64,000 nucleotides of DNA from Acidimicrobiaceae bacterium. Its GTDB lineage: Bacteria; Actinomycetota; Acidimicrobiia; Acidimicrobiales; Poriferisodalaceae. Below, in pieces: positions 3,913-48,481 of the stretch; the stretch's first letter is position 1, and each line of letters begins with the position of its first letter. The translations under genes and the position numbers were made by a program. The notes below the pieces were generated by a model. That model was given only the letters and a program-made list of their open reading frames with translations, searched no databases and was not told where the DNA came from. The stretch is taken from assembly GCA_026713105.1 (NCBI GenBank), contig JAPOPC010000018.1, positions 1 through 64,000 of the forward strand, in the 5' to 3' direction.

Positions 3913-4028
3913 TATCTGGAGGGCTGGACGCTGTGATGGTTCGGAGCTTGGGTTTCGTGTGGGCGACATGTCGCTGACGGGGCGGGGATGCGGCTTTGGC
4001 GCCGGCGGCCGAGCTGCTGGGCGAGGTG

Positions 4029-6938: not shown

Positions 6939-7066
6939 GCGGCTGGCTCGGGCGGACACAGCACTCCTCGCGGTGGCCCTATGAGGCCCGTGAGTCGTGA
7001 CATCAGCATGTTCTGGACGAGCCGCGACCACACTTGCGTGATGCCGACCTTCGAACTCGCGCGGGG

Positions 7067-15760: not shown

Positions 15761-15903
15761 GTCTCGAGACTCCCGTCGCACGCCCAGTCGCCCTCAGTTT
15801 GGGCCAGGAAGCTCTGCGCCTGCTCGCTGAGCCAGCGCGGAAACCGAGCAAGCCCAAGAAAACCTGGACCGGCGACCCCTGCCGAGTGCGTAGCGTCGAG
15901 GTC

Positions 15904-16998: not shown

Positions 16999-17079
16999 CA
17001 TGACCTCCGTACGGCCGAAGGCTCCGCTAGGGCGATCGAGCGGTCCCGCGGATTCAGTGGCTCGAGCGACCCGGAGACG

Positions 17080-31130: not shown

Positions 31131-31481
31131 CGCCGATCCTGTCAAATTGCTTGTGAGTCCAGCGTGGTCTGAGGGCCGCGCCTGTCAGCCGGGCGGAATC
31201 ATGCCTGCGGCTGAATCTTGGCATGTCGGCCCTGTCCGTGAGCGACACTGCCGTGCCGGCACTTGGCGCGTACTAGGTGCGTGCAGCAACAGGCTCGTAC
31301 CTAGAGCGAGCCCGCCAAGCGATCACACGGACGCTGTGCAGCCGCCGCTTCGCACCACTGCCACCACCTTCTCATCATGGCTGTCACACCCCCGGGCAAT
31401 ACTGGTCATCGTTAGTGGAGGCGGTCATCTCCAGATGAGCGCCTCGCATTGTCACGTCTAGCCTGAGAGAAGTGCCATTTG
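31131..31481. other. Leader region upstream of the defence operon
   Basis: 351 bases without a supported gene between the oxidoreductase stop and the first gene of the 14-kb cassette. It must hold the operon promoter. GAGAGAAG lies just before the presumed start. I see no clear palindrome or -10/-35 pair. Confidence 0.4.
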
Positions 31482-34337
31482 GTGGTTGAGAAGACAATTG
31501 TTGACCTTCACGGCGAGCTTCACGACCATTTCGTTGCGCTCCGCGCTGATCGCGACGCGACCAGTCCCAGCAGTCCCGTCTTCGTTCTTGAGCACGGGCT
31601 CGATCCCGACCAGGAACTCCCCGAGCTGAATGGCGTCGTACGCGATGTCGTCGCCGGCGCCCGGTTGCCAGCAAAGCACTGGCTGCCTCTCGTCGTCTAC
31701 GCGGCAGAGATCGGCTACCGGTACGAAGGTGACGAGTACTGGCCGGTATTTGAGGCGGAAACTCCAGGCTGGAAGCGACACGGAACCGCTGGTCGTCGGT
31801 ACATCCGCAGGAAGTACGAGTTGTTCGCCGCGACGTACGGCGGAGCTCGGCCTTCAGGCACCTGGGCAGAGTGGTTCAAGAACATCGCATGGCCGATAAC
31901 TCATGCTGTGCTGCCAGCCGACCTACAGCGGCATCTGGCGCGATTGCTTTCCGATTACCAGTATGCGTTCACCACTGAACTGCTCGAGGATCATGAAGCG
32001 CTAGGGGAGCGGCTAGGCGCTCGAGCCGGTGACACCTCATCACGGTTCCGCAAATTTGCGGAAAACACGTCGCTGCTCGGGTTGGTCTCGGCCTCCTTGC
32101 TCCTGGGCGACGAGGATGAGACGCCGCTCCTGACTGGTGATGTGTTGCACAGAATTGTGGCTGATCTCAGCCATGAGCGACAGGCGGGGGAGTGGCTTCG
32201 CGACGCGAAACGCGCCGCAGTCCGAGTCCGCCGGAAGGGGCTACTCGGAGCAGCCAGCTCGGTGTCGGATGCCTCTGTGGCGGACATTGTGGACCGACGC
32301 TGGCCGAGGCTTGAGCTGACCCTTTCTCTTCGTCGCTCGTCAGCAGGGTGGTCGGTCTACCTGACTGTTCCAAGTCATGAGTCCATCGCCCAACGTTTCC
32401 CCGCGGTTCGGGACGAGATGGGACGCGTCCGATGCCGAATCGACGGCGTCTCCGGTGTCCGTGCTCGGGGCAGCATGATGTATCGGCAGGGGCCGTTGGC
32501 GCTGGAAACAATGCCGGTCCCAAACAAAACTCCCGTGCGAGTGGAGGGCGGTTCAGCAGCACTCACCGAACGTCTTGTCGATCACTGCCGCGTTCCGGCT
32601 CAACCATGGTTGTTCCGATTCCGTGAACCGGGCTTGGCGCACGAAGTACGAATGAACTCCGTGCGCCCGGGCGAGGAATACATCCTCGTCGCGCCTGAGC
32701 TTCCCGAGTCCAGCGACCTGCTCGGCGCCGAACTTGTCAACCTCACGACGCGAGGTGTCAAGGGAACGCGGTTCAGCATCCCGAGCGAGGTCGATGATGC
32801 ACTGATTGCAGCCCTCCAAGACATGGGCCTTGGGCTGGTCTCCGATGTCTTCCTTTGGCCGGCGGGACTCGTTCCGGCGTCCTGGGACGGTGAGGGCCGA
32901 GCGGCGTGGTCAGCTGGAGAGGACCCGATTATCGGCATCAGGAGCGCGCGTCGTGTCGCCCGGTGTGTTGTGTCAACGGCTGAGGATGTGGTGGAAATCC
33001 GCTGGCCAGTCGATCGCGACACAGTGTTTGTGCGGCTGACGGGCCTCGAGATGGGCACACATTCCGTTGAGATCCAACTTCTCGGTGCCGACGAGTCGGC
33101 GAGCGCAGTCGCGACGGGTCAAGTCGTGGTTGAAATCCTGGAGCCCGCCGACAGTGCCAGTTCGGCAAGTCGAGGTCAGGGCATTCAGACGTGGACCTAT
33201 CCGTCCCATCCGACACTTGAAGAACTGTGGCGTGGGGGCGCAGCGGTCGTTGTAGATGGGCCGCACGGCGAGAAGGTCCGATTCGAACTTCGACTTATGA
33301 CACGCAGCGGTCGAAGAACACTTGCGACGAGGTCCTTCTCGTCCGCGCTGCCAGTTTGGGAACATCGATGGCACGACCTTCTCCGCGGAGTTCAGGGAGA
33401 CGGGGAACTAGATAGGAACATCGGTCAGGCTGAGGAGTTGACGGTCGTAGTCTCCAACCTCACGCTGGGCTCGGCGGAGATTCGCGCAGAGCGGCTCTTC
33501 GAACCCCTTCGATGGAACACTGGAATTGACCGCGATGGCCCGTACGCGAGGCTCGTCGACCACTTGGACAGTGATGATCTCCGGGTGTCCGTGACGGATG
33601 TCCGCTCGCCAGCCGAGGCGCTCGAGGTTGTCCTCCAAGACGACCGGGAGATCAGGTCCGAGAATGGGCTGTTGGCCGTGGCGTCCGCCGGGGATTTTCA
33701 GGCTGCAGTAGTACTTCCGCCTCACGTCAGCGGCGGACTGGACGCGCTCGCAAGGCTCTCAGTACGACCCTCGCTGCGTACCGGCAACCGATCGGCGGAC
33801 TCGATCCATCGCATGATCGAATTGGCCCATCGCTGGACTCGAGCGGCATCGCCGGCGGATCAGAATGCCGCGAGGATGCAATCGCGGGTTAACGATGCGA
33901 TCGTGGCGCGCCTGAGTGGGGTGATCGCCGGCGACCGCTGGCGGGACCTCGAACGAGAGGCTCTCGAAAGGGCTGATCTCACTCGGGACCGCCTGTTCGG
34001 CGCAGTTGGTCGCTCCGGCGCAGAGCAGGCGATCGCCGCCACGCTTGTCGACATGGCGGGTTGTGTGCCGGCCCTCCCGGAGGAACGTGCAGTCGCGTTC
34101 GCAGAAGTCCTTGAAGCGCACGAATGGCAAGTTGGTGGGGATTTCGCCGAACTGATACTGCGGCTTTGTACGGCACCCGGATCGATCGCGCCAACGGACG
34201 GCCGCACGTCTGAGGCGATCAAACTTGCTCTCGAGCGGCCCGCTCTCATACGACTAGCGCGGGCCTTCGCCTTTGCGATTGGCGACAAGGGGGGCGAATC
34301 CGGAATGTCACTGCTTGAGGAGTGGCCGTGGGACTAG
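31482..34337 (+). CDS. Large unknown protein, first gene of the Druantia-like operon
   Basis: 951 residues from the GTG at 31482 (a TTG one codon earlier also fits), preceded by GAGAGAAG. No enzyme motif is evident. Residues about 70-165 are aromatic-rich (YAAEIGYRYEGDEYWPVFEA, then FKNIAWPITHAVLPADLQRH), a segment I associate with large defence-island proteins but cannot name. Around residues 500-560 the sequence is beta-rich (VVEIRWPVDRDTVFVRLTG) and may be an immunoglobulin-like sandwich; the C-terminal quarter is helical. The stop overlaps the next gene. It may correspond to the DruB or DruC position of Druantia operons, which is inference from context only. Confidence 0.75.
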   Translation: MVEKTIVDLHGELHDHFVALRADRDATSPSSPVFVLEHGLDPDQELPELNGVVRDVVAGARLPAKHWLPLVVYAAEIGYRYEGDEYWPVFEAETPGWKRHGTAGRRYIRRKYELFAATYGGARPSGTWAEWFKNIAWPITHAVLPADLQRHLARLLSDYQYAFTTELLEDHEALGERLGARAGDTSSRFRKFAENTSLLGLVSASLLLGDEDETPLLTGDVLHRIVADLSHERQAGEWLRDAKRAAVRVRRKGLLGAASSVSDASVADIVDRRWPRLELTLSLRRSSAGWSVYLTVPSHESIAQRFPAVRDEMGRVRCRIDGVSGVRARGSMMYRQGPLALETMPVPNKTPVRVEGGSAALTERLVDHCRVPAQPWLFRFREPGLAHEVRMNSVRPGEEYILVAPELPESSDLLGAELVNLTTRGVKGTRFSIPSEVDDALIAALQDMGLGLVSDVFLWPAGLVPASWDGEGRAAWSAGEDPIIGIRSARRVARCVVSTAEDVVEIRWPVDRDTVFVRLTGLEMGTHSVEIQLLGADESASAVATGQVVVEILEPADSASSASRGQGIQTWTYPSHPTLEELWRGGAAVVVDGPHGEKVRFELRLMTRSGRRTLATRSFSSALPVWEHRWHDLLRGVQGDGELDRNIGQAEELTVVVSNLTLGSAEIRAERLFEPLRWNTGIDRDGPYARLVDHLDSDDLRVSVTDVRSPAEALEVVLQDDREIRSENGLLAVASAGDFQAAVVLPPHVSGGLDALARLSVRPSLRTGNRSADSIHRMIELAHRWTRAASPADQNAARMQSRVNDAIVARLSGVIAGDRWRDLEREALERADLTRDRLFGAVGRSGAEQAIAATLVDMAGCVPALPEERAVAFAEVLEAHEWQVGGDFAELILRLCTAPGSIAPTDGRTSEAIKLALERPALIRLARAFAFAIGDKGGESGMSLLEEWPWD

Positions 34338-35434
34338 TGCACCTTGATCGAGACGATGTCGTGGCGGCGGCAGTTGATTCGCTCGGATTTGAATCCAGCG
34401 AGGTTGACCTCGAAGCGCCGGAAGTGCTTGCGGAGGTCACCCGCAGGGCAGCTTCGTTTGATTGTCCAACCACTCCGATCGGACTTGAGCGGCGCGTCCA
34501 CGACGTTCTCTTTGGGCTCGGCTCCTACAGGCGACTCGATACGGGCGAGTCTGTTGTCAGAGAGATGATCGAGAGCCTCGTTGGCTATGGAGATCTCGTG
34601 GAAGCACCGATAGACGACGAGCGGACAGGCACGTCGCATCGCGTTCTCTTCTTGGCTCAACCTTCATACGTCGTTCTCTCCGCTACGACTTGTGTCCTCC
34701 TCGGGGTCCGCGCCAATGGACTCCCGATTGGCGACGCGTCGATTCGCGAGCGAGTCATGCACCGCAATCATTCGCGGCACGTAAGGCTTCAGCCGGGCGA
34801 GGGACCTGAGGAAGTACTCGGAGGAATGGGGCTGCGCGAGTTGAGCTCTGAGCAATGGCTGAAGCACCCGCCGACGGCGGCACCAGACTCGGTTGTGAAG
34901 GAGTACGCCACGCGCCTTGCCGCGGCAGGTCCGTCCGGATCAGTTGGCCCAATCAAGATTCTCGACCCCACAAGTCCAGTGACGTTCTACCCGGGGCGCT
35001 GGCATGCTGCGAGGGCACGAGACACTGGCAAGTACGTCGGAAGAAGGTTGGCCGAGTTCGGTGCAGATCAGTGGTGCTACTGCGAGGTCGCCGACGGCGA
35101 GGTGACCAGCCTGATCGATCTGCCAGCTATTGATCGCCTCGCACGCGGATGCGACGAGGCTTGGCGGCTACAGGCAGCCCTAGACGTCCTAGCGGGGACG
35201 CCGCAAGTCGTGACGGTTCGGCACGATTCGCGACGACAGGAGGCAATCATTCGGTTCAAGTCTCCCATCCCCGCATGGGATCAACGACGGCTCGATGCCG
35301 TTGGCGAGCCGTTGGGCCACCAGACGGGATGTCTCTTCGCCTACCGAGTGCCAGAGGAATTGCTCGACGCCGAGTTGGCATTCTTGCAACGAAGCACATG
35401 GCTCAAGGTCGAGCCAGAGAGTGAGGCCAGGTGA
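34328..35434 (+). CDS. Unknown protein, second gene of the Druantia-like operon
   Basis: 368 residues from the GTG at 34328, five bases after GAGGAG; GTGs at 34322 and 34337 are alternatives. It overlaps the first gene and ends with GTGA shared with the helicase start. The N-terminal half has the length and helix pattern of a winged-helix segment (LERRVHDVLFGLGSYRRLDT, then MIESLVGYGDLVEA). The C-terminal half is mixed alpha/beta with VTVRHDSRRQEAIIRFKSPI. No catalytic motif is seen. It may be a DNA-binding or adaptor subunit for the helicase. Confidence 0.7.
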   Translation: MGLVHLDRDDVVAAAVDSLGFESSEVDLEAPEVLAEVTRRAASFDCPTTPIGLERRVHDVLFGLGSYRRLDTGESVVREMIESLVGYGDLVEAPIDDERTGTSHRVLFLAQPSYVVLSATTCVLLGVRANGLPIGDASIRERVMHRNHSRHVRLQPGEGPEEVLGGMGLRELSSEQWLKHPPTAAPDSVVKEYATRLAAAGPSGSVGPIKILDPTSPVTFYPGRWHAARARDTGKYVGRRLAEFGADQWCYCEVADGEVTSLIDLPAIDRLARGCDEAWRLQAALDVLAGTPQVVTVRHDSRRQEAIIRFKSPIPAWDQRRLDAVGEPLGHQTGCLFAYRVPEELLDAELAFLQRSTWLKVEPESEAR

Positions 35435-38400
35435 GGACTGAGGCACTAACGATTGGCGAGACGATCGACGAGATTCGCCGAGCTCTGCAGGACTACATCG
35501 AAGCTACTTACCACATCAGTCACCCGGCACTGGTGGAGCAACGCAAGAAGCTCCTCGACGAGCCCGGGGCAATCTTTCAAGCACCGTTCCTTGAGAGCAC
35601 GCCCCGCTACAAGACAGGAAAGCGCTACTCAGATCTCTCGATCCCTGACGCAGCCAAGGAACTGCTCCAAGTGATGGCCACCCCGTCCTCCGATCGAGAA
35701 CCTCTGATCTACGATCCGCCGTACTCGCACCAGGCGGCAGCCATCGAGGCAACGGTCTCGGATCGGAAGAATCTGGTGTTGACGACGGGCACCGGGTCAG
35801 GCAAGACCGAATCCTTCCTGCTACCGATCCTTTCCAAACTCGCAATTGAGGCTGCCACGAAACCGGAGTCCTTCGCCAAGCCGGCCGTGCGCGCTGTCTT
35901 GCTCTACCCGATGAACGCCCTGGTGAACGACCAACTCGGCCGCCTCCGGCTCATCTTTGGGGACAAAGGCGTGGCCGGGAGATTCTCGTCGTGGTCGGGA
36001 CGCCCGGCGAGGTTTGCGCGATACACGAGTCGCACGCCTTATCCAGGCGTCCGCACGGCCCAAAAGGACCAGCAGCGGCTGCGGTCGTTTGGTGACTTCT
36101 ACGTAGGTCTCACCGATCGGGCTGCTGACCCGGACGATCCTGACCGCGCGGCGGCAGCCGAACTGGTCGAGAGCTTGCAATCGCGAGGCAAGTGGCCGGC
36201 GAAGCCCGACATGAAGTACTGGTTCGGACAGTCGGGGCAGCGGTGGCAGGACAGGGAAGGCAACTTCCAGCGAGCAGTGATGCGGGCCGCCGATACGGAA
36301 TTGGTCACGCGGCATGAGGTGCTTGAACATCCGCCTGATGTCCTCGTAACCAACTACAGCATGCTCGAGTACATGCTCATGAGGCCCCTCGAGCGGCCGA
36401 TCTTCGACCGTACCCGTAGCTGGTTGGCCGAGAACGAGGACGAACGGTTGCTCCTCGTGGTCGATGAGGCGCATCTCTATCGCGGCGCAGCAGGATCCGA
36501 GGTTGGGCTCCTCCTACGAAGGCTGCGGGACCGTCTCGGCATTCCTGCTGACCGATTGCAGATCATTTGCACGAGTGCCAGCTTCAACAACCAAGCATCC
36601 GCGGCGGAATTCGCTGCGGAACTCACTGGCACGGATCTCCGGAACTTCTTGACCATAACGGGTGATCTGGCACTGAGAGGTGGAGCCAGTTCGGCCAGCG
36701 AAGAGGACGCGGCGGTGCTTGCCGGCACTTCTTTGGCCAACTATTACGAGGCTCATTCCGACTCCGAGCGGCTGGAGGCTGTTCGCGATCTGCTGTCATA
36801 CCGCGGTGTCGATGCAAGCTCTGACAGTTCGGCCGCTGTGTTCGACGCGCTTCACGAATTCCCACCGATGAGCCACCTCGTAAACACGACAATGCAGAAA
36901 GCCATGCCGCTGGACGAACTTGCGGCCGAGGTCTTCCCCGGAGTGGGCAGAGCGCTCGCTGATCGCGCTCTGACAAGCCTCGTTGCCCTCGGCAGTACTG
37001 CCCGGCAGCGACCTGGCGCACCTGGGCTGCTGCCTTGTCGGGTGCATGGGTTCTTCCGAGGACTTCCAGGGATCTGGGCCTGTGTCGACGATGGTTGCAT
37101 CGCTCGAGGTGACCTGCCTCCGGGGCCAGTAGGCCGAGTTTGGAGTCAACCACGAGACCGGTGCTCCTGCGGTTCGCGGGTGTTCGAACTATTCACCTGT
37201 CGCAACTGTGGGGCCGCCTACGCGCGTGCCTACACCGACAACGTTGAGTCGCCTACGTATCTCTGGTCGGAGCCAGGTGGATCCTTCGAAACCGCCGGCG
37301 GACACGTCAGCGAGTTGCACGCTCTCGACCTCCTACTCGAAGCTCCGACAAGCGCGCATATCGAACCTGCCGACTTGGACCTAGTCACGGGTCGCCTCAA
37401 CCCGGACCGCCTGGGAAACCGAATTCGCCAGGTATTCATGCGCGCAGAGCGCATGCTTCCGCCATCGACCGATGACGAGAGCGCCTCGCTGGCGGACGCC
37501 AGCCTGGGGGAGTTTCGGCCATGCGGGGTTTGCGGTCAAACCGCGGCATTCGGGCGTACCTCGGTGCAAGATCATCAGACGAAGGGTGATCAGCCGTTCC
37601 AAGCCCTAATCGCCCGGCAGCTACAAGTCCAGCCACCAGGTTCTCAGCCGGCGACGCGGTTTGCGCCGCTGCAAGGCCGGAAGATCCTCATCTTTTCGGA
37701 TTCTCGGCAGACCGCTGCGAGGCTCGCCCCCAATCTGCAGGACTATTCGATGCGCGACGCGTTACGTCCTCTCGTACTCGCTGGGTGGACGGAACTCGCG
37801 AAAGTCCCCCGTTTGGCGGACCGATTGAGCCTCGACGACCTGTACCTCGCTGTGTTACTGGCTTCAGAGCAAATGGGCGTGCGGCTTAGGCCAAAGCTCA
37901 AGGGAACAGAATCGTTGCATGTCAGCTCTGCGGTAGCACGTGCACTGAGTGACGGCGTGCTCGCCGATCCCATGGACGCCCTAGACCTGGTCATGGACGT
38001 ACGTGCCGAAAACCCACCCGAAGCACTTCTGCGCGCGATCAACGAGACCCTCAGGAGCAAGTACTTCGGAATGCCCTCTCTGGCCCTAGCGACCGTCCGC
38101 GAACGAGGGAAATTCACTGCCGACATCGAGGGGCTGCGAGACCTTCCGGGCGTCACGAGTCCAGCGGAGAAGGTGTCGCTTGCCCGAATGTGGGTTTCCT
38201 ATTGGTCCGGTTATGGATACTGGTTTCGAAGCATGTCGCCGAGCTTCTGGAACACCAGCCAGGGAGTTCGACCCCACTCGGGGAACTTCACGGCATTGGA
38301 TCGGTGGTTTGGTGACCGGGAAGCGGTCAAGCAGTTCAAGAAATGGTGGTTGCCGGAACTCCTGGAGATGTTCACAGAGAACGTGGCGCAAAAGTCGTAC

Positions 38401-41013
38401 CGAATGCTCGCCCAGCATCTCGCGTTGGATGTTGGTGGGGAATGGGGCTATTGCCAGGCATGCAGGTCGACGCAGCGACCGCACCCTGGGCCCGCCAAGT
38501 GCATGGTTTGCGGCCGCCCGGACACGGTTACTCCGATTGACCCGGATGAGGATCTCGTCTTCGCTGCTCGAAAGGGCTACTACCGCGCGAGTTCGGTCCG
38601 TGCGCTAGGGCCGGAGCATGAGGCGCCGCTCGCTTTGATTGCCGCCGAGCACACAGCACAGCTCAACGCAGCTCAAGTCGACGAAGTGTTCTCTCGAGCA
38701 GAGCAGTACGAGTTGCTCTTCCAAGACGTCGACATCGGGCTGCCCGCGCCCGGCGAACAAGCTCGGACGGCGATCGACGTTCTGTCATCGACCACAACGA
38801 TGGAGGTCGGGATCGATATCGGCGCCCTCTCAGGTGTTGCGCTTCGGAACATGCCTCCAGCGCGATCCAGCTATCAACAGCGCGCCGGCCGCGCTGGGCG
38901 GCGGGGCAACGCGGTGGCCACGGTGGTCGCCTTTGGGAGTGCCGACAGCCACGATGAGCAGTACTTCCGCGAACCGGAATCGATGATCCGAGGCCAGGTC
39001 GAGGATCCGACTCTGACGCTCGACAACGCCGCAATCGCGCGACGGCATGTCACCGCATACCTCTTCCAGCGCTACCACGAAGCGAGGCTTCCTCACGTCG
39101 ACCCCGAGAATCAGACTCAGCTATTCGAGGTCCTCGGAACCGTCCGCGGATTCCTAGATGACGAGTCGACACTCAGCCGCAAGGACTTCGAGGAATGGCT
39201 ACGCAACAACGAGAAGGAACTCCAGGAGGCAGTCAGCGGTTGGCTGCCAGATGCGATTGCGCAGGGCGATCGCGATGATTTGCTAACGCAACTTGTTGCC
39301 GAGACGCTCCGGGTCGTTGACGCAGCGATGCCAACAACGCAAGGAACCGGGACCGATGACGAGTCCGACGCAGACTCGGAATTGGGGAGCGCCTCTGCCG
39401 GAGAAGCGAGCGACGAACCTGCGGAGCCATTTATCGAGGCGCCAGCGGAGGTTGGTGAGGAGTCCAGCACCGCGGTCAGATCGGCAACAAACCTGCTAGA
39501 TCGCCTCCTCTACAAGGGTGTGCTGCCGCGGTACGCGTTTCCGACCGACGTCGTGTCGTTCCACGTCTTCGACCGGAACCGGTCAACTCGCTTCCGGCCA
39601 GCCTTCGAGTACGCGCCAAGTCAAGGTCTGTCCGCCGCGCTCACCCAGTATGCGCCGGGCAAAGAAGTGTGGATCGATGGAAAGCTCTGGAGTTCTGGAG
39701 CCTTGTACTCACCGATGCGGTCGGATCGGTTCGAGGCGTGGCAGGACCGCCGCCTCTACTTTGAGTGCAGTGTCTGCAGATACGCAGCGACAACCGGTCT
39801 CCGAGATGCAGATCGAGGTGAGAAGCGCGACTGCCCAGCTTGCGGAAGCGAAGGGTCTTTTGGAGCCGCAAAGAACTGGATGCGGCCACCAGGGTTTGCT
39901 CACCCGCAGGCACAAGAGGAAGGGACCTCGCCCGAGGATCAGCCAGCGCGGAGCTACGCAACCAGGGCAAAACTCGTTGCCGAGGGACCGGCCGATCCCA
40001 ATCGCTGGCAGGCCGTGACCCCACGCCTTCGGAGGTACTTCCATCGCACCCACCTCTTGGTGACTAACAGCGGGCCGAGGCGCGAGGGCTACACCTATTG
40101 CACGAGGTGCGGAGTGATCGGGCCGACAGCTCAGCCTTCAAGCCGCCTCGCCGGTGCGCATCCGAAACCATATCCGGACGACAGGGAGCCGACGTGTTCC
40201 GGATCTGCTGCGACTTCCGGGCTCGTGCTAGGGACGGACTTCATCTCCGACGTTCTGCTCGTGGGGCTACAGGCATCCAGTCCAGTCACTCTGCAACCCG
40301 GCTACTTGGCGACTGACGTCGCTCTTCGAACTCTGGCCGAGTCCATCACAATCGCAGCGTCACGGGTGCTAGAGATCGAGAAGGATGAGTTGCAGGCTGA
40401 GTATCGGCCGGCCCTCACTCCTGACGGTCACGCAGGACTCGAAGCCGAAATCTACGTGTACGACACACTCGCTGGCGGGGCAGGCTTCGCCCAGCGCATC
40501 GGCGAGATGGGCAGGGCGATCTTCGACGAGGCACTCTTCGTCCTTGAAGGCTGTCCGTCGGGATGCGACCACTCGTGCTATCGCTGTCTCCGCAGCTTCA
40601 GGAACAGGTTTGAGCACGAATTGCTCGACCGGCACGTCGGCGCCAGCTTGCTCCGCTATCTCCTCGACGATGTCCCGCCTGCACTTGACAAGGATCGGCT
40701 TAAGGGGTCTACAGACCGATTGTTCGCGGACCTTGAGCGCTTAGAGACGGAGGCGGTCGAGTTCACTAGGAACGCCGCTATTGAGGTTCCGGGAATCGGC
40801 ACGGTCGAAGCGCCCATCTTGGCTCAGGGGGAGAGAAGTGAACTCATCGTGGGGGTCCACACCCCACTGACTCCTGACACCGCGGCTGATGAGCGGCTTC
40901 GAGAGACGGCGGAATTCAGCACCACGGTGCCCGTGCACCTCGTCGATGAGATCTTGATCACACGGAATCTGCCACGAGCCAGTCATTCCGTGCTCCAAGC
41001 GCTCGGTCTATGA
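35431..41013 (+). CDS. druE: DruE-like superfamily 2 helicase with DUF1998 domain
   Basis: 1860 residues. The Q-region DPPYSHQAAAIEA is followed by Walker A TTGTGSGKTESF (residues 118-129), motif Ia LLYPMNALVNDQLGRLR, DEAH box LLLVVDEAHLYRG (about 345), motif III IICTSASF, motif IV ILIFSDSRQTAARLAPN and motifs V-VI TTMEVGIDIGALSGVALRN, then YQQRAGRAGRRG (about 1150). Several Cys pairs (CSCGSRVFELFTCRNCG; CQAC...CMVCG; CSVC...CPAC) would bind zinc. The C-terminal DUF1998 part has DTLAGGAGFAQRIGEMGRAI and GCPSGCDHSCYRCLRSFRN. Size and layout match DruE of Druantia more than shorter MrfA/DrmB proteins. GTG start and ATGA exit overlap both neighbours. Confidence 0.85.
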   Translation: MRTEALTIGETIDEIRRALQDYIEATYHISHPALVEQRKKLLDEPGAIFQAPFLESTPRYKTGKRYSDLSIPDAAKELLQVMATPSSDREPLIYDPPYSHQAAAIEATVSDRKNLVLTTGTGSGKTESFLLPILSKLAIEAATKPESFAKPAVRAVLLYPMNALVNDQLGRLRLIFGDKGVAGRFSSWSGRPARFARYTSRTPYPGVRTAQKDQQRLRSFGDFYVGLTDRAADPDDPDRAAAAELVESLQSRGKWPAKPDMKYWFGQSGQRWQDREGNFQRAVMRAADTELVTRHEVLEHPPDVLVTNYSMLEYMLMRPLERPIFDRTRSWLAENEDERLLLVVDEAHLYRGAAGSEVGLLLRRLRDRLGIPADRLQIICTSASFNNQASAAEFAAELTGTDLRNFLTITGDLALRGGASSASEEDAAVLAGTSLANYYEAHSDSERLEAVRDLLSYRGVDASSDSSAAVFDALHEFPPMSHLVNTTMQKAMPLDELAAEVFPGVGRALADRALTSLVALGSTARQRPGAPGLLPCRVHGFFRGLPGIWACVDDGCIARGDLPPGPVGRVWSQPRDRCSCGSRVFELFTCRNCGAAYARAYTDNVESPTYLWSEPGGSFETAGGHVSELHALDLLLEAPTSAHIEPADLDLVTGRLNPDRLGNRIRQVFMRAERMLPPSTDDESASLADASLGEFRPCGVCGQTAAFGRTSVQDHQTKGDQPFQALIARQLQVQPPGSQPATRFAPLQGRKILIFSDSRQTAARLAPNLQDYSMRDALRPLVLAGWTELAKVPRLADRLSLDDLYLAVLLASEQMGVRLRPKLKGTESLHVSSAVARALSDGVLADPMDALDLVMDVRAENPPEALLRAINETLRSKYFGMPSLALATVRERGKFTADIEGLRDLPGVTSPAEKVSLARMWVSYWSGYGYWFRSMSPSFWNTSQGVRPHSGNFTALDRWFGDREAVKQFKKWWLPELLEMFTENVAQKSYRMLAQHLALDVGGEWGYCQACRSTQRPHPGPAKCMVCGRPDTVTPIDPDEDLVFAARKGYYRASSVRALGPEHEAPLALIAAEHTAQLNAAQVDEVFSRAEQYELLFQDVDIGLPAPGEQARTAIDVLSSTTTMEVGIDIGALSGVALRNMPPARSSYQQRAGRAGRRGNAVATVVAFGSADSHDEQYFREPESMIRGQVEDPTLTLDNAAIARRHVTAYLFQRYHEARLPHVDPENQTQLFEVLGTVRGFLDDESTLSRKDFEEWLRNNEKELQEAVSGWLPDAIAQGDRDDLLTQLVAETLRVVDAAMPTTQGTGTDDESDADSELGSASAGEASDEPAEPFIEAPAEVGEESSTAVRSATNLLDRLLYKGVLPRYAFPTDVVSFHVFDRNRSTRFRPAFEYAPSQGLSAALTQYAPGKEVWIDGKLWSSGALYSPMRSDRFEAWQDRRLYFECSVCRYAATTGLRDADRGEKRDCPACGSEGSFGAAKNWMRPPGFAHPQAQEEGTSPEDQPARSYATRAKLVAEGPADPNRWQAVTPRLRRYFHRTHLLVTNSGPRREGYTYCTRCGVIGPTAQPSSRLAGAHPKPYPDDREPTCSGSAATSGLVLGTDFISDVLLVGLQASSPVTLQPGYLATDVALRTLAESITIAASRVLEIEKDELQAEYRPALTPDGHAGLEAEIYVYDTLAGGAGFAQRIGEMGRAIFDEALFVLEGCPSGCDHSCYRCLRSFRNRFEHELLDRHVGASLLRYLLDDVPPALDKDRLKGSTDRLFADLERLETEAVEFTRNAAIEVPGIGTVEAPILAQGERSELIVGVHTPLTPDTAADERLRETAEFSTTVPVHLVDEILITRNLPRASHSVLQALGL

Positions 41014-42206
41014 CCGCTCCACGGGCATTCGAGACAGCGGTCGGTATCTCAGGTATCTGGCTCGGTGCGCCAGCTCGGTGGAGCTTCTCGAGTCTCGCAG
41101 AAGTCGGCGCGTGCCCGCGTCGCTACGCGCTTAGGCGTGCCTCCTACCCTGACGTGTGGGACAGACCCGGGTTTCCCGACCGTGTAACCGACGCGGCACT
41201 ACTGGGAACGGCCGTCCATGAAGGCGTCGAACTGGTCCTCAAGGAGTTGAGTAAGGCGGGTTGTATGTCCCCCGCCGACGAGCGCGCGGTTGCGGTGATA
41301 CGCGGGCTTGGCGGCTACAGCAAGATCGCGGCTCGCTGCGTTGATGAGCATATTCAGAGGCTCTCTTCGAATCCTCGTATGGCACCTCGGCTCGGTGGCC
41401 TGAGGGCGCGGCTTGAGGGCCGTGCCGCGGAGATGCGCCGGGGGATTCAGGCCCTCGTGTCGCGGAGCCCCGCGGCTCCCTGCGAGTCAGTACGCGACAG
41501 GCACCACAGCGGTAACCCGGTCAAGCGAGGGAGTTTGGGGGAGGGACGGCATCTAGAAGCGACGCTGGTGGCCGAAGATATCCACTTCGCCGGCCGCATC
41601 GATCTACTGGTCGTCCATTCAGATCGCGCCGACATAATCGACTTCAAGACCGGACAGCCCTCGGAGAGCCACAAGCTCCAGTTGCACCTCTACGGATTGC
41701 TCTGGCAGCTGGATGAGACAGCCAACGCACGGCGGCTACCGGTCGGATCGCTAGCGCTCGGATACGTCGACGGGATTCAGGAGGTGGAACCGCCATCGGA
41801 TTGGGGGGAGTTGCACGACTGGCTCCGAGACGAAATCGCGAAGGCTGAGTCCCTGGTTCTCGCTCCATTGCCGGTCGCCACTCCGTCGGTCGAGTGTTGG
41901 CATTGTCCGGTCCGCCAGCTGTGCGACGAGTACTGGGACTCGTCCTTCACTAGCCGTGACCCAGAATCGAACTTCGTTGACGGGGAGGTTTCCATCCTCA
42001 GTAGGAATGGGCCGACCAGCTGGCTGGGGCGCCTCACTAGCGATGGCAGTGAGGTGTTGTTGCGGGCCAGTCGTGACTACGAGACCCTTGCACCGGGTAG
42101 TGATGTGCGCATCTTGAACGCTGTGGTGGGTAAGGGTGAGGACCTTGGTGGATTGATCTTGACGTTGACCCCTAGCTCCGAGGTATTTGGCCCGATAAAG
42201 CGATGA
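41010..42206 (+). CDS. PD-(D/E)XK nuclease with iron-sulfur Cys set (Cas4/AddB-like)
   Basis: 398 residues; ATG overlaps the helicase stop (ATGA). WSFSSLAEVGACPRRYALR gives the first Cys and Arg typical of Cas4/AddB/RecB nucleases, then GTAVHEGVELVL (the catalytic-region His). The core is AGRIDLLVVHSDRADIIDFK (Asp and DxK), followed by GQPSESHKLQLHLYGLLW (Gln motif). A C-terminal ECWHCPVRQLCDEYW supplies the three other Cys for a 4Fe-4S cluster. The last 70 residues look like a small beta barrel, perhaps OB-fold. Coupling to the helicase implies a joint helicase-nuclease function. The classical Druantia gene set as I know it does not list such a nuclease. Confidence 0.8.
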   Translation: MTAPRAFETAVGISGIWLGAPARWSFSSLAEVGACPRRYALRRASYPDVWDRPGFPDRVTDAALLGTAVHEGVELVLKELSKAGCMSPADERAVAVIRGLGGYSKIAARCVDEHIQRLSSNPRMAPRLGGLRARLEGRAAEMRRGIQALVSRSPAAPCESVRDRHHSGNPVKRGSLGEGRHLEATLVAEDIHFAGRIDLLVVHSDRADIIDFKTGQPSESHKLQLHLYGLLWQLDETANARRLPVGSLALGYVDGIQEVEPPSDWGELHDWLRDEIAKAESLVLAPLPVATPSVECWHCPVRQLCDEYWDSSFTSRDPESNFVDGEVSILSRNGPTSWLGRLTSDGSEVLLRASRDYETLAPGSDVRILNAVVGKGEDLGGLILTLTPSSEVFGPIKR

Positions 42207-42226
42207 CGGGCCTCGGCTGGCGGGAT

Positions 42227-44146
42227 CTAGCTGGATTCATCCGAGTCGGCTGGTGCTGCAGGCAGCGTGACTCGCGCTCCGTGGCAAACCGGTCGGTCGA
42301 GGCGATGCTGCCGGAGTGTGTCGCGCACCGCGTCTGACTGGGCTCGCCGTTCGAGCCATCGCTCGTACCACCAAGAGCAAATGCGCTCGACGTCGTTGGC
42401 GGCGTTGCGGCGGAACAGGTAGTGAGGTTCGTCGTCCACGCCGAGTAGATACGGGAGCAGATTGTCGACCAACGCTACGCCGTAGACAAGCCTGGGCCTC
42501 CGGTGCTGGAGGAGTTCTTCCGATGGCCATCCGAGGATGTCGAGGCCCTCGCGGACCTTCCGCAGCTTCGGATTCACTCCCTCGCCGAAGATGCTGTTGA
42601 CTCGGGCCCCTGTACGCGTCTCCTCCGCCAGCTTCGCGAGCGCCCTCACTGTGAAAGCGGAGAGGTGAGAAGTGCCGAATGACCGCGATCGCCCGAGTGG
42701 CGCGAAGATTATCTCGGTTCGAGATCCGAGCACGTCTTCGGGGAGCCGTAGTCGGTTGTATTGGCTGGAGCTAGATCCGTAGAGCGATGTCGTCCCAACG
42801 AAGACGAGATTGGACCGTCGCCTGATTGGGCGACCAGCCAGCGAGGAAGCGATCTGGCTGGCGTACGCGCTGTATCGATTGCGGTAGGCACGAACGACCG
42901 TCGGGCTGACGGCGAGCATCGCGACGAGCTTGCCGCCGATCAGCGCGTTATAGGGCGGAAGCGCGCCACAAACAGTGAGGTCGGCAATCTCTGTTCCGAC
43001 GGCCTCAGCCTTAGCCCGCCGCCGGATCGACGAGATCGCGCGGCGAGCCTCTCTGTCTTGGAGCGCGGATCGGAGCCCTGCGCGAGTTGGCTTGGGCGTC
43101 AAGTACTTGGCGAGGGCCTTCTTGGCGGTAAGTAATTCACCTAGGGCAAGGCAACGCTTGCTCCTGAAGAGATCAGATTTCGCACGCTTGGTCCAAATGG
43201 CCGTATCGGCCGGATCACTGGGAGTCGTAAAGTCCGATCTCCTCGCGAATCGGTTGTGGTCCCGTCGCCGGACGGCGGCTTCTTGCCGCAGTTTCTCAAT
43301 GCTGTCGTTGGTCGGCTCGCTCCACAGACTCGGCCAGTAGAGGCCGTCCTCAATTAGGTCGTCCAGGTAGATCTCGTCGAGTCCGCTTTCGAGTCGGCGC
43401 ATCAGCCACCTCGCCCATCGCAGGTCGGGGGCCCTCTCCAACCGTGCCAGCACATCTTCGGACTGCCAGCCGATCCATTTGTCTCGCTCGGCAATCTGGA
43501 CGATCGCGCTGCCGATCGCAGCAATCCCGATGACCGTGTGAAAGGGGGCTGCGCGATCGCGGACGAGGAGTTGCATCGTCCTGCCCGGCGTGCTGCTGAG
43601 TTGGTTGCTCCATGTATGTCGGAAGTACCGCCAGATGTCGAGCAGGCGGAGGCCGGTCTGGGCGCACCGATCTGTACTGGAGACGATCTGAACGTACGGG
43701 TCGATCGCGGCCCGACCGGGCCCGACGGACTCGAGTGCATCGGCGAGTTCGCTTCCATCGCGCATGAGGCTGAAGATCGACACGAACGCGCCTCGGAACT
43801 CGCGAGGCCTCTCCATCTTCTCGATAAACCGCCGTACCGAAGGGATCGCGAGTTGTTCGTCCCGCTTGAGCAACTCCTGGCTTCGGACGCGTTGCTTCTC
43901 GGCTGCGGGATCAGCTTCGGCTGTCGGGGGGCACACGAGGAGGCCCTTCGCTTCGACGCGCAGTTGCCAGCCTTGACTGGCTAGATCAGCGAGAACGCCG
44001 AGAGCGGCGTTGATCGCAGTGCATTTCGATGCCTTCGAGCTAGGCGCGACGGTCTCCCCAAGAGAGCCAGCCGCGGACAGGAACTCATCCCGCTGGGTCG
44101 GGGAGAGGGTTGCTGGAGCCGGAAGCGAGTACCAGATGTCGCTCAT
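42227..44146 (-). CDS. druA: DruA-like DUF4338 protein
   Basis: 639 residues. DUF4338 landmarks: LLDIWRYFRHTWSNQLSSTP (residues 168-187), LLVRDRAAPFHTVIGIAAIG and ERDKWIGWQ (220-228), then VCGALPPYNALIGGKLVAML (392-411) and VGTTSLYGSSSSQYNRLRLP (450-469), the conserved core of long DruA-type proteins. The biochemical role of DruA is not known. It is the second gene of a two-gene minus-strand operon, overlapping the GHKL ATPase gene by 4 bp, and its stop lies 20 bp from the stop of the opposing nuclease gene. The family call rests on remembered motifs. Confidence 0.72.
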   Translation of the reverse strand: MSDIWYSLPAPATLSPTQRDEFLSAAGSLGETVAPSSKASKCTAINAALGVLADLASQGWQLRVEAKGLLVCPPTAEADPAAEKQRVRSQELLKRDEQLAIPSVRRFIEKMERPREFRGAFVSIFSLMRDGSELADALESVGPGRAAIDPYVQIVSSTDRCAQTGLRLLDIWRYFRHTWSNQLSSTPGRTMQLLVRDRAAPFHTVIGIAAIGSAIVQIAERDKWIGWQSEDVLARLERAPDLRWARWLMRRLESGLDEIYLDDLIEDGLYWPSLWSEPTNDSIEKLRQEAAVRRRDHNRFARRSDFTTPSDPADTAIWTKRAKSDLFRSKRCLALGELLTAKKALAKYLTPKPTRAGLRSALQDREARRAISSIRRRAKAEAVGTEIADLTVCGALPPYNALIGGKLVAMLAVSPTVVRAYRNRYSAYASQIASSLAGRPIRRRSNLVFVGTTSLYGSSSSQYNRLRLPEDVLGSRTEIIFAPLGRSRSFGTSHLSAFTVRALAKLAEETRTGARVNSIFGEGVNPKLRKVREGLDILGWPSEELLQHRRPRLVYGVALVDNLLPYLLGVDDEPHYLFRRNAANDVERICSWWYERWLERRAQSDAVRDTLRQHRLDRPVCHGARVTLPAAPADSDESS

Positions 44147-45717
44147 GCCGGTGCGTTGAAGAAGCTAGCCAATACGTCTGACCATGCTCGCCGGAACTCA
44201 TGGCGCGCTGTCCGCTCGGACCTCCGGGTAGCCAACCATTCGGCACGCGCTGCTGCAAGCACAGCCAGGGCGATTTGAGTCGCCGTTTCTTGGTCTGACC
44301 GTGCCTCGCTGCTGGCGAGTGGGCCGTAGAGGTCACGGAAAAGGGGATGTCGGCTGTTGAGCGCCACCACAAGTCGCCCTTTCTGTACGAATGCCTCGAA
44401 CGCAGTGGTCGTGGACAGCTCGCCGACCACCAACTGGTAGGGGCAATCACGGGTCAGGGTGAGTTCATTGGCGGCAAGTACGTGTTCAAGATCGGGCGGC
44501 ATTGGACCGGATCGCGCGGGCAACGGCGGCAGGCCGTCTTCAGCCAGTGCTGCGCGTCTTTCGGCGTTGCTGAGGGGAGTTGAAACCTTGATTAGCTCGA
44601 ACCGACGTCGGACCCGGTTGTTGAGTGCGCGGGCGATCGGCTCAAGATCCTTGGAGAGTAGATCGCTGAGTTCTTGCTGTGGGGAGATGGCCTGTTTTGC
44701 GTGGGTGATCCCGAACGACTCATCGAGGACGGGGTCGAAGCGAACTTCGCACCGCCACCAATCGTCATAATTCTGTCGACGCTTCGTTCCCATGAAGAAC
44801 CACCCGCGATCGATTTCGCGACCAGCGCGCAGCACCGACACCGACGGGGCGTTAGTGATACCGAGCCGCCGTTTCTCGGATGCGGACAAGCTGTGCCACC
44901 GCTCGATGGGGAGTTCGCTGAATCGCACTTCGATGCGACCCTCACCCTCGTCGCTAGCCAGCCGATACACCAGCACGTCGCCGAATTGGCGTGCTCCTGC
45001 CGCCCGGCCAGCATCGTCGAGCATGAGGGGGTCGCTCGGTTCAACCGGAGTGTCGTTGAGAAGGAGAATCAGTCCGGCACGCAAGAACTCGCGGTATATG
45101 CGACCCAAATCTGTCGTCAGGTGTTTCTCGATAGTCGACACCCGTCTGTATTCGAGCCGGTCGCAGCGCAAGAGCCGAACAACTGTGCCCGTTTTCGAGG
45201 CGGGCTGGAAAGGGGGCGCGTCGACCTCGTCAATCGGCGGCAACGTGCGCCATCCGTTATCGACCATGTCATCAACGTCCAGCCGACCCATCCACACTCG
45301 TTCGTCAGTCCAGGAGTAAACCTCAACGCATCGTGCCCTGCTGAGGGCCCCATTGGGTAGTCCCATTCCGTATCGTCCCAGGAACGAACGATCGTCAAAC
45401 CTGGTTGAGCCACCGAAGGTGAGAGCCTTTGCGAGTGTGTCAGCCTCCATCCCCGAGCCGTTGTCCGCGACGCTGATCTCGATCGGATGCGTTGTCAGTC
45501 GTTCGTCAGCCGCGACCCACACGCGTACCTCGGTAGCACCCGCCTGCAACGAGTTGTCAATCAGTTCAGCTATCGCCAACGCTGTTGTCTTGTAGCCGGT
45601 ATCGCGGGTTGCGAGTATGAAGTTCGCCGGATGCAGCAGCGAAGGCCGCGGGCGTCTTGGGCGGGCGGACGACTGCCTCGGATTGTCCCGTGTTGGCCGT
45701 TGCGTCGATGTCGCCAC
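44143..45717 (-). CDS. GHKL ATPase (MORC/MutL/Hsp90-like) of the defence cassette
   Basis: 524 residues. The Bergerat fold is clear: N-box IAELIDNSLQAGATEVRVWV (E51, D54, N55), G1 ISVADNGSGMEADTL, then FGGSTRFDDRSFLGRYGMGL (G2, residues 101-120). After the ATPase domain comes an S5-like transducer with GWFFMGTKRRQNYDDWWRCE and a helical C-terminal part. MORC/MutL-like ATPases in prokaryotic restriction-like operons beside SF2 helicases and nucleases are known from comparative genomics. It probably acts as an ATP-driven DNA clamp or loader. The first 25 residues are basic and disordered. Confidence 0.85.
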   Translation of the reverse strand: MATSTQRPTRDNPRQSSARPRRPRPSLLHPANFILATRDTGYKTTALAIAELIDNSLQAGATEVRVWVAADERLTTHPIEISVADNGSGMEADTLAKALTFGGSTRFDDRSFLGRYGMGLPNGALSRARCVEVYSWTDERVWMGRLDVDDMVDNGWRTLPPIDEVDAPPFQPASKTGTVVRLLRCDRLEYRRVSTIEKHLTTDLGRIYREFLRAGLILLLNDTPVEPSDPLMLDDAGRAAGARQFGDVLVYRLASDEGEGRIEVRFSELPIERWHSLSASEKRRLGITNAPSVSVLRAGREIDRGWFFMGTKRRQNYDDWWRCEVRFDPVLDESFGITHAKQAISPQQELSDLLSKDLEPIARALNNRVRRRFELIKVSTPLSNAERRAALAEDGLPPLPARSGPMPPDLEHVLAANELTLTRDCPYQLVVGELSTTTAFEAFVQKGRLVVALNSRHPLFRDLYGPLASSEARSDQETATQIALAVLAAARAEWLATRRSERTARHEFRRAWSDVLASFFNAPA

Positions 45718-45812
45718 AGGTGAATCCCCTCGTCATGTGCAGGCCTGAGGCGTGATAGACACGCGATAGATACGTGATTATCGTACGCTAGCACTGTGGA
45801 TGGACCGCTCGG
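45718..45812. promoter_or_regulatory. Divergent promoter region of the GHKL-druA operon
   Basis: 95 bp separate the GHKL gene start from a divergent small gene. The centre is AT-richer than its flanks (GATAGATACGTGATTATCGT), with TACG and CGTA half-sites 7 bp apart, a possible operator. No firm promoter elements are assigned. Confidence 0.3.
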
Positions 45813-46136
45813 ATGACCGAAGCCGTTCGGGCTGACACCCCTCTTGTCGATCTCGATGAGCGAAGCGTTGGATTGGCGCTCGCCGTCCCTCTCAGCGGGA
45901 GGCTGGATGCTCTGGTTCGACTGGTGGAGGCTTTCGGTGATAGGACGAGCCGCAAAGAACTCATTGCCGCACTCATACTCGCGGCGCCACCCGACGGCGA
46001 GGATCTAGCCGCGTGCGTCCGCGTCTATCGCACGGCACTTGCGCGCGACACTCTGCTCGACCCCGCCGACGCCCCCGACCACTTGGCGTTGGAGCCTCGA
46101 AGACCAGGACCGAGACGCCGGCGATCGCCTCAGTAA
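45813..46136 (+). CDS. Small hypothetical protein divergent from the defence operon
   Basis: 107 residues, ATG at 45813. LVDLDERSVGLALAVPLSGR and LDALVRLVEAFGDRTSRKEL, then IAALILAAPPDGEDLAACVR are helical and resemble small ribbon-helix-helix-like regulators or accessory proteins, but no family is recognised. The tail is Arg and Pro rich. Its position, divergent from the GHKL gene with a shared promoter region, suggests a regulator of the cassette. Confidence 0.5.
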   Translation: MTEAVRADTPLVDLDERSVGLALAVPLSGRLDALVRLVEAFGDRTSRKELIAALILAAPPDGEDLAACVRVYRTALARDTLLDPADAPDHLALEPRRPGPRRRRSPQ

Positions 46137-46201
46137 CGCCGTTCCGCCGCTGCTCACTCGTCAGAATGCCTTCGCTGGATCGCGAGCCGCGTAGTCGATC
46201 G

Positions 46202-46753
46202 TTATTCGGCACTCTCAGACAAAGCGGATTGACCTGTCCCGTTTTGGCGCTCGGCGAGTCGCATCTTCTGCGTCCGCTCGCGGGCGGCGGCCACACGGCC
46301 GATGAGATTGACGCTCAGGAGTGGCACAACAGCGGTAGGTACGAGCACAAGACCCCAAGCCGATCGGTCGGTGAGCAACAGCACGAATCCGAACACCAGC
46401 GCCAGCACAGCGAACATCCACGAGAGGTACTGACCACGATCGGCTCGCCGATTGTCGCCGTCGATGACCTTGTCTTCAATCTTCTCTCGGTGCTGGCGCC
46501 GCTCAACGATGTCGTTCGTGATCGTGACGGCCAAGTCCTTGTGTCGGTCTGCGAGACTCCCAAGCATCTCGACGAGCGACGGCATCAGCCATTGGACCTG
46601 TTGCTTAATCGAGACAGATGTCAGAGACGCAACGACCTTGCGGACTTCGGAAGGTGCCTCTTCGAGCAGCTCCTCCACGCGGCGCAGTGCGTCAGGGTCG
46701 AGTTCTTCCGGCGACGGCGTGCCGTCGTCTGGGCTCCGCTCTAGGTCGTTCAC
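46202..46753 (-). CDS. DUF2335-family membrane protein
   Basis: 183 residues. An acidic N-terminus and a helical part with ITNDIVERRQHREKIEDKVI, then GDNRRADRGQYLSWMF, match the DUF2335 consensus (Gln-His-Arg and Gly-Asp-Arg boxes), followed by two membrane helices (AVLALVFGFVLLLTDR and GLVLVPTAVVPLLSVNLIG). The function is unknown. The GTG start overlaps the stop of the upstream gene by 4 bp, so both are one operon. Confidence 0.75.
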   Translation of the reverse strand: MNDLERSPDDGTPSPEELDPDALRRVEELLEEAPSEVRKVVASLTSVSIKQQVQWLMPSLVEMLGSLADRHKDLAVTITNDIVERRQHREKIEDKVIDGDNRRADRGQYLSWMFAVLALVFGFVLLLTDRSAWGLVLVPTAVVPLLSVNLIGRVAAARERTQKMRLAERQNGTGQSALSESAE

Positions 46754-46971
46754 GTGCCGATGGCGACGCGGCGGTTGGAGAATGCAGCGCGGGCGTCATC
46801 CTCTAGGGAGAGCCAGTCCTGCACGAATCCAAGCGCGACATCGTGCTCAAGCGTGTCGCCCAAGTTGTAATCGTCGTACAGGCCCCATGCATCGAACACT
46901 CGCGCGGCACCGTGCAGCGCGCTCGGCGTGGCGAACAGGAATCCGCTCCGGGAACCGATGCGCTTCGCCAT
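46750..46971 (-). CDS. Small hypothetical protein coupled to the DUF2335 gene
   Basis: 73 residues from the ATG at 46971 (MAKRIGSRSGFLFATPSALH). It is acidic in the second half (YDDYNLGDTLEHDVALGF). The family is not recognised. The GTGA overlap with the DUF2335 gene and the shared strand indicate joint translation. A longer reading from 46998 is possible. Confidence 0.55.
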   Translation of the reverse strand: MAKRIGSRSGFLFATPSALHGAARVFDAWGLYDDYNLGDTLEHDVALGFVQDWLSLEDDARAAFSNRRVAIGT

Positions 46972-47047
46972 AGCGCGTACCTTACAGACTCGCTTCAACA
47001 GTCAGTGTTGCGCCACGGAGGTTGGTCGCGCAGCGAGGGAGAGCCGG

Positions 47048-48319
<1,272 letters not shown>

Positions 48320-48402
48320 CAGTCCCCCTCGTTCGCGCCGCCGAATGTACCCAATCGAACGCTGCCGCGCGAGTCCGGCACCCAGTGGGGACATTTGCGC
48401 CC

Positions 48403-48481
48403 GCTGCGGAGGCGGCAGAACTCTCTGCTCCAGCGATCCAGCCGGTCGCAACGTCGCAGAGCCTCCTGCCGCCTCGGCAGC
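48403..48481. repeat. Dispersed inverted-repeat element, copy B
   Basis: 16-bp arms (GCTGCGGAGGCGGCAG and its complement with one mismatch), 79 bp in total, beginning 17 bp behind the stop of the carboxyltransferase gene. Compared with copy A (23554-23707, opposite orientation) it lacks the central 75 bp. The palindrome would fold in RNA and may act as terminator or processing signal. Confidence 0.65.

Follow-up and report, generated by a model that had tools for sequence, protein, structure and literature searches.

Druantia type I is listed with the genes druABCDE (PMC7251935); for the functions of DruA, DruB, DruC and DruD in this type, no account was found in those parts of the open-licence literature that were available. 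Druantia type III, according to the available sections of PMC13192584, has no components other than DruH and a DruE with PLD nuclease domains. Another comparison is offered by restriction-like operons of MORC and paraMORC proteins (PMC2292703), in which a GHKL ATPase with an S5 region stands beside a superfamily 2 (SF2) helicase and a nuclease; in the same paper it was proposed in 2008 that MORC and MutL ATPases loop DNA in restriction systems. The locus described here is a six-gene cassette within a stretch of 64,000 nucleotides (referred to as the window) from an Acidimicrobiaceae bacterium (contig JAPOPC010000018.1, positions 1 to 64,000). It links Druantia to the MORC/MutL ATPases. The cassette is coherent and uncommon, and what is new in it within Druantia type I is an exchangeable module, formed by a GHKL ATPase and a long DruA protein. 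No paper combining Druantia with GHKL, or Druantia with MORC, was found in the open-licence literature, where three papers mention DUF4338, and the word GHKL does not occur in the main text of PMC12458937.

A Druantia type I relative outside the druABCDE set

All six open reading frames (ORFs) are intact at the expected positions (Table 1). Four plus-strand genes, overlapping by 16, 4 and 4 bp, converge on two minus-strand genes that overlap by 4 bp, and a gap of 20 bp separates the two sets. A preliminary description of the sequence had drawn the same layout of open, overlapping and convergent genes, and had named a DruE-type helicase, a DUF4338 (DruA) protein, a PD-(D/E)XK nuclease and a GHKL ATPase; matches to PADLOC and Pfam models bear these identities out. 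Of the two genes it left as unknown, the first (951 amino acids there, 952 here; denoted G1) is still without a match, and the supposed 368-residue unknown is DruD (370 residues). The DruE1 model covers the cassette helicase at full length (residues 4-1857 of 1860). Its Pfam domains are PF00270, PF00271 and PF09369 (MrfA Zn-binding), the motifs TGTGSGKTE and DEAH are invariant across three sequences, and it is the sole DruE match in its own genome. The DruA protein also matches the Pfam DruA domain (PF14236, 2.4e-25).

The cassette shares the DruA, DruD and DruE families with Druantia type I, but lacks DruB and DruC and has in addition G1, an insert in DruA together with its GHKL partner, an extra PD-(D/E)XK gene, and a division into two convergent gene sets. 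DruB and DruC models are not among the PADLOC matches of the six cassette proteins, and the DruB of a Pseudomonas locus (L008) finds no second ORF in the 86-locus set described below; the same holds for DruC. G1, which has no PADLOC, Pfam or NCBIfam match at E 0.01, stands where DruB and DruC would be. The cassette is a relative of Druantia type I and not a druABCDE system, as the preliminary description had supposed. Such systems would probably be overlooked or assigned to the wrong type by tools that rely on the presence of DruB and DruC, and no PADLOC-DB 2.0.0 model for G1 turned up, although the gene is present in 81 of the 86 DruE1 loci most closely related to that of the window.

Other systems are more remote. 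The DruE family is common to type III, and DruE3 models match the cassette DruE; two solved helicase sequences, which we assume to be DruE by size and name only, match it at 3e-83 and 3e-64. DruH of type III has a gross layout like that of G1 (helical ends and a middle with immunoglobulin-like, or Ig-like, domains), with no sequence match between them. The cassette differs from the two-gene type III set, and it differs from the MORC/paraMORC operons in that its helicase is a DruE, whereas theirs belong to other groups and no DruA partner is described in the accessible text. The nearest PADLOC model for the GHKL protein is MzaB of MZA (66.6 bits, against an NCBIfam cut-off of 850 bits), and other MZA models are not among the matches listed for the six proteins. 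For the nuclease, the nearest PADLOC models are DruK, a PD-(D/E)XK protein bearing a Druantia name (3.8e-11, a weak and partial match over residues 177-370), and Cas4 (1.3e-8).

DruA forms, GHKL coupling and module exchange

To place the cassette among its relatives, genome contigs were scanned with a three-sequence DruE alignment. The best 80 of 565 relatives, five plasmid loci and the window make up a set of 86 DruE loci, which is biased toward close relatives of the window DruE and includes near-copies (nine Streptomyces loci, for example). According to iterated profiles, G1 is present in 81 of these loci, DruD in 82, DruE in 86, DruA in 76, GHKL in 41 and the PD-(D/E)XK nuclease family in 27. 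The ten loci without DruA are mostly cut by contig ends; L007 is disrupted by an insertion element, and L061 has no G1 within the 3 kb before its contig end.

DruA occurs in two forms. The long form (41 loci, 639-781 amino acids) is accompanied by GHKL in 41 of 41 cases, the short form (35 loci, 384-474 amino acids) in 0 of 35; lengths refer to the longest possible start, and the long DruA of L016 is split into two ORFs, the larger piece having 361 residues. GHKL is the next gene upstream of the long DruA in 40 of the 41 loci (in L016 the second DruA piece intervenes), and in 28 of the 41 the two genes overlap by 1-37 bp, stop codon excluded. In an alignment of 40 long (L016 omitted) and 35 short proteins, none of the 35 short DruA has a residue in the columns that correspond to window residues 237-384, and in the 40 long ones these columns are occupied to 97.5% on average; elsewhere, 44 positions share one residue in at least 90% of both groups. 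The long DruA is a short DruA with a helical insert of about 148 residues. The insert is helical in the predicted model of the long DruA, which has a predicted local distance difference test score (pLDDT) of 86.5 and a predicted template-modelling score (pTM) of 0.85. A fold search with this model yields PDB matches of E 2.9 or higher only; the weak matches include acetyltransferases, in keeping with a designation of DUF4338 as a GNAT domain (PMC10853773, as far as its text was available), an identity we do not take as shown. Among viral structures, the same model finds matches in giant viruses, to uncharacterised proteins of Faunusvirus (8e-9) and Yasminevirus (1e-6).

The two forms go with two main gene orders. 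The short DruA stands in line ahead of G1-DruD-DruE, on the DruE strand in 32 of 35 loci, and the long DruA and GHKL mostly face the end of the core operon. The GHKL-DruA pair is upstream and co-directional in L027, L029 and L073, and divergent in L046 and L060. GHKL, long DruA, DruE and a PD-(D/E)XK gene are all present in 19 of 85 DruE rows, and the set does recur in distant genomes, as had been proposed. The proposal had been staked on a DUF4338 match and on the plus- and minus-strand genes being found together, and both are observed.

The histories of the parts differ. A tree of the DruA core (392 common columns; 40 long and 35 short proteins) separates the two forms by one branch with support 100. 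Along the DruE tree (85 rows), the long/short label requires five changes, all forced by starred branches, or four if the long-branch rows L005, L006, L008 and L057 are left out; without these rows, a single clade for the GHKL-type DruE is rejected (p 0.0028). On short branches of the DruE tree, L026 with a short DruA adjoins L027 and L029 with GHKL and a long DruA. Pairwise distances were correlated for the 32 of the 41 GHKL loci that have five full-length genes: the correlation is 0.980 for GHKL and long DruA, 0.971 for G1 and DruD, 0.964 for G1 and DruE, and 0.866-0.894 between the modules. We note that the trees are quick searches with support from the Shimodaira-Hasegawa-like approximate likelihood ratio test (SH-aLRT) only, and that long branches meet in both the DruA and the DruE tree. 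The single DruA split against four or five changes on the DruE tree, together with the distance correlations, indicates that the pair has moved as a unit, swapping with the short DruA over a stable core. With high confidence, the DruE-linked loci have a two-module architecture, in which GHKL and the insert-bearing DruA form an exchangeable module on a G1-DruD-DruE core. The suggestion of a hybrid between Druantia and GHKL restriction-like systems holds for the relationship to Druantia, and is otherwise better replaced by this exchange over a constant core. A long DruA accompanied by GHKL throughout the DruE-linked loci, beside a short DruA without it, offers a direct comparison for testing.

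The same data might reflect two separate systems, G1-DruD-DruE (with or without the nuclease) and an independent GHKL-DruA, that are neighbours by defence-island clustering. The pair lies on the strand opposite to DruE in 35 of its 41 loci, the two modules have partly separate histories, and GHKL-DruA is found without DruE nearby in L138 and L157 and, in L125, in a genome without a DruE match. Yet the surveyed loci have one DruA form each, with both forms in none of them, and the pair and the short DruA stand in for one another, as would be expected for one slot; moreover, core and pair recur jointly in 41 of the 86 loci, from five named phyla and with six on one strand. We regard two independent systems as rather unlikely.

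Additional loci from viral contigs and plasmids were typed with the survey profiles (9 of 10 plasmid records were typed; two, L005 and L006, had already been surveyed). Insert-bearing DruA with GHKL is found in L137/L141 (one contig), L138, L139 and the Roseivivax plasmid L157, and by profile typing L142 and L143 have an insert-free DruA and no GHKL. Those linked to DruE agree with the coupling, namely L137/L141 and L139 (insert and GHKL) and L142 and L143 (neither). The viral DruE loci L140 and L144-L154 have no DruA match. Two GHKL paralogues precede DruA in L006, L138, L139 and L157, which suggests a heterodimer. The stretches of 10-13 kb examined for L138 and L157 contain no DruE, and the plasmids with a DruE match do not include the L157 record. 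A sample of 396 genomes of the phylum contains DruE1 in three, namely the window's own genome and two that look like L059 and L073; as these seem to be counted already, the sample gives the coupling no independent support.

Active sites, a possible mechanism and points against it

The GHKL protein has MORC2 as its best PDB profile match (5e-13), followed by MutL. An alignment of 30 such proteins, from 29 loci and the window, shows no variation at E51, D54-N55, D85xGxG, G102-G103 and G114-R-x-G-x-G-L, or at the pair K341-Q342 of the transducer region. Intact Bergerat motifs and the S5 lysine are both present, as in GHKL proteins of MORC/MutL type; the roles of these residues, and of the nuclease motif residues below, are presumably the usual ones. 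GHKL proteins also serve as switches, and the GHKL-long DruA pair might not activate DruE but hold it in check as long as the cell is uninfected, as a regulator or safety lock, in line with its position opposite the DruE strand in most loci and with short-DruA systems that work without GHKL. Invariant ATP-binding boxes and transducer lysine and glutamine, however, are those of a full ATPase, and DruA is a regular type I component and not an added repressor, so that we consider a lock of this kind improbable.

The gene after DruE in the cassette codes for a nuclease in which H70, E183, D198, D211-x-K213, Q224 and Y228 are invariant in 25 of 25 aligned proteins (27 loci have the family), as are the cysteines C35, C296, C299 and C305. 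By its residues it is a nuclease of Cas4/AddB/RecB type, probably with an Fe-S cluster. Its PDB profile match (E 0.008) is the UvrD/REP helicase chain 6ppu, and it scores 25.9 bits on the NCBIfam cas4 equivalog, for which 65 bits are required. The slot after DruE is variable, with the PD-(D/E)XK nuclease in 27 loci and other genes, or nothing recognised, in the remainder: an AAA/SF1-like gene of about 660 residues in Alphaproteobacteria (three scanned), in Streptomyces PDC-M02A/B (from a scan of one locus), in L005 a fusion of NERD and helicase, and in L006 a gene annotated as NERD. Along the DruE tree, the label for the PD-(D/E)XK nuclease changes 14 times; this gene is optional and can be replaced by others. 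In the Streptomyces locus L011, the PADLOC candidate PDC-M02A/B lies between DruE and DruA (15719-17472), and ORFs of similar size occupy that place in other Streptomyces loci.

The predicted model of G1 (pLDDT 86.2, pTM 0.57) consists of a helical N-terminus (1-275), a beta-sandwich or Ig-like part (281-746) and a helical C-terminus (754-948). Foldseek matches are general tandem beta-sandwich proteins (complement, receptors) with template-modelling scores of about 0.1, which gives the fold class only. G1 has the lowest mean identity of the five proteins compared over 32 loci (0.377, against 0.600 for DruE), and the C-terminus of DruE is among that protein's least conserved parts (0.35-0.37). 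An alignment of G1 as a fused DruB and DruC was negative with hhalign against the DruB and DruC of L008, a weak test with single-sequence targets. The sole PADLOC family to match G1 members is DpdF (2 of 30, best 4e-4). A search of 149 genomes for the DruH3 family gave no match, but the control genomes were likewise without one, so that this result does not bear on the absence of the family. In L126, a 153-residue G1-like and a 141-residue GHKL-like ORF adjoin (6223-7214), possibly as remnants, and the genome has a distant DruE-like helicase elsewhere (31% identity).

The explanation we favour, tentatively and at somewhat less than even confidence, is that two modules and an accessory together form an anti-phage system akin to Druantia type I, one that would work by clamping, loading, unwinding and cutting. 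Its core would be G1-DruD-DruE, its head either a short DruA or an insert-bearing DruA with GHKL, and its accessory a nuclease or ATPase gene after DruE. With ATP, and in the manner of MutL and MORC proteins, a GHKL dimer would close on DNA; together with DruA it might form an ATP-gated clamp by which invading or replicating DNA is marked, and the DruA insert would be the likely contact with GHKL or the core. G1 may act as a sensor or scaffold, by analogy with DruH of type III; it is the fastest-changing part and has an Ig-like middle. In the available sections of PMC13192584, DruH is described as a likely sensor with helical ends and three Ig-like domains, and as more divergent than DruE. The licensed complex would load DruE onto DNA with 3' single strands, type III DruE being reported to prefer 3'-tailed DNA (PMC13192584). 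DruE would then unwind and the PD-(D/E)XK protein cut, as in AddAB; a separate nuclease is assigned the cutting because the C-terminal nuclease domain of type I DruE, a Vsr domain, is reported as inactivated (PMC12458937, as far as its text was available), and the loss of catalysis in the window DruE is presumed. Both the anti-phage function and the mechanism of the cassette are ones we infer, and the clamp-and-degrade mechanism taken by itself is doubtful.

Several observations weigh against the two-module explanation with clamping. The clamp, docking and loading steps are deduced, and the nuclease family is absent from 59 of the 86 loci. DruH models match 0 of 30 G1 proteins (30 of 58 in the set), by which G1 is rejected as a DruH. 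Within G1, the helical C-terminus is the least conserved part (0.299, against 0.366 for the Ig-like part); G1 variation therefore differs from that of DruH, where selection maps partly to the Ig-like domains. In the phylum sample, the GHKL profile matches 11 genomes at E 1e-30, three of them with the whole system. One locus, L125 (genome G420, 1173-4188), has a 397-residue insert-free DruA directly preceded by a full-length GHKL gene, and its genome yields no DruE at E 1e-20. This DruA has a complete Pfam DruA domain despite the insert gap in the profile, which rules out a relic. The remaining GHKL-profile matches of the sample have no adjoining DruA in the stretches examined. Conversely, six distant loci have an insert-bearing DruA without GHKL: the haloarchaeal plasmids L155, L156, L159, L160 and L161 and the Hymenobacter plasmid L158. 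Their DruA proteins (708-1198 amino acids) cover the insert part of the profile. Nearby lie a gene of about 470-520 residues (of three tested, two match nSTAND3 below the cut-off and one has no match) and an FtsK-type gene, identified by a Pfam test in L155, by annotation in L156, L158, L159 and L161, and by size in L160. Four of the six also carry DruE, of about 1808 residues.

The link between insert and GHKL is complete among DruE-linked bacterial loci near the window and breaks in both directions further out. GHKL therefore does not depend on the insert everywhere, nor the insert on GHKL, and the insert as a docking site for GHKL is weakened. From L138, L157 and L125, with no DruE nearby, the GHKL-DruA pair may also act alone. 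In a broader reading, Druantia type I could be a plug-in machine with a constant helicase core and interchangeable DruA heads, DruA serving as an adaptor for different ATPases, namely for MORC/MutL-like GHKL clamps in bacteria and for STAND and FtsK-type proteins in haloarchaea and Hymenobacter, with the GHKL-DruA head also standing alone. We put this forward as a possibility, with less confidence than the two-module system with its clamp-to-cut scheme.

The chromosomal site

Table 1. Position of the cassette genes and of adjacent features in the window (aa, amino acids)
Feature	Position	Strand	Size	Remarks
G1	31479..34337	+	952 aa	no known family; occupies the place of druB-druC in canonical type I
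DruD	34322..35434	+	370 aa	PADLOC DruD1 PDLC00010, 6.6e-98
DruE1, SF2 helicase with MrfA-type Zn-binding domain	35431..41013	+	1860 aa	PDLC00013, 1933 bits
PD-(D/E)XK nuclease, Cas4/AddB/RecB type, with C-terminal extension	41010..42206	+	398 aa	PDDEXK_1, 7.1e-22
Long DruA (DUF4338), helical insert at residues 237-384	42227..44146	-	639 aa	PDLC00001, 673 bits
GHKL (Bergerat-fold) ATPase, MORC/MutL sort, S5-type transducer region	44143..45717	-	524 aa	HATPase_c_3, 4.6e-20
Zinc-type dehydrogenase/quinone oxidoreductase-like gene	30147-31130	+		confirmed
Citrate synthase	47051-48451	-		confirmed
Stretch missing at the same site in five congeners, cassette with a further 1.3 kb or so on the right	31132..47026			flanks nearly contiguous in L105-L109

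The preliminary description had placed the cassette, as a movable element, between a quinone oxidoreductase gene on one side and a DUF2335 pair with citrate synthase on the other. The oxidoreductase-like gene and citrate synthase are found as described; the DUF2335 pair is not, as the five ORFs in 45813-46970 (three plus, two minus) have no Pfam match at E 0.01. Mobility is supported only as presence and absence among congeners. There is no integrase or transposase among the ORFs scanned, a search of the window with the left 381 bases finds no second copy (E 1e-3), and the two junction regions have no common exact direct repeat of at least 10 bases. The segment 46660-47026 was rejected as a genome-wide repeat; except for a single 25-base match at another place, its recurrence is limited to the same site in two congeners.

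None of ten congeners has a DruE at E 1e-100, and one genome of another genus of the same family has two contig-end DruE pieces with 53-54% identity. In five of the congeners (L105-L109), the oxidoreductase gene converges directly on the citrate synthase gene across a short gap; at this place the window has an additional 15.9 kb. Four others (L101-L104) have different cargo at the same site, and in the tenth (L099) no citrate synthase is found in the 1.5 kb after a partial oxidoreductase gene. The gap between the two genes is a cargo hotspot in the genus. L103 carries two N6/N4 methylase-like genes together with MTaX1 and an AAA/DUF4143 gene, L104 HepT-like and nucleotidyltransferase genes, and L101 an AbiEii-like gene; the cargo of L101, L102 and L104 also includes a gene of 437 amino acids that is identical over its first 60 residues to the AAA/DUF4143 gene of L103.

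This cargo bears on a further explanation, namely that the cassette serves DNA repair or plasmid control, there being repair proteins among the YprA helicases. YprA/MrfA and MutL relatives do act in repair, and we found no assay of the cassette's gene set in the literature. However, the DruE1, DruD1 and DruA1 matches are to defence models, DruE1 is rare in the phylum sample, and methylase, HepT/nucleotidyltransferase and AbiEii-type genes occupy the same site in congeners; a repair or plasmid-control role is the least probable of the alternatives considered, and very unlikely.

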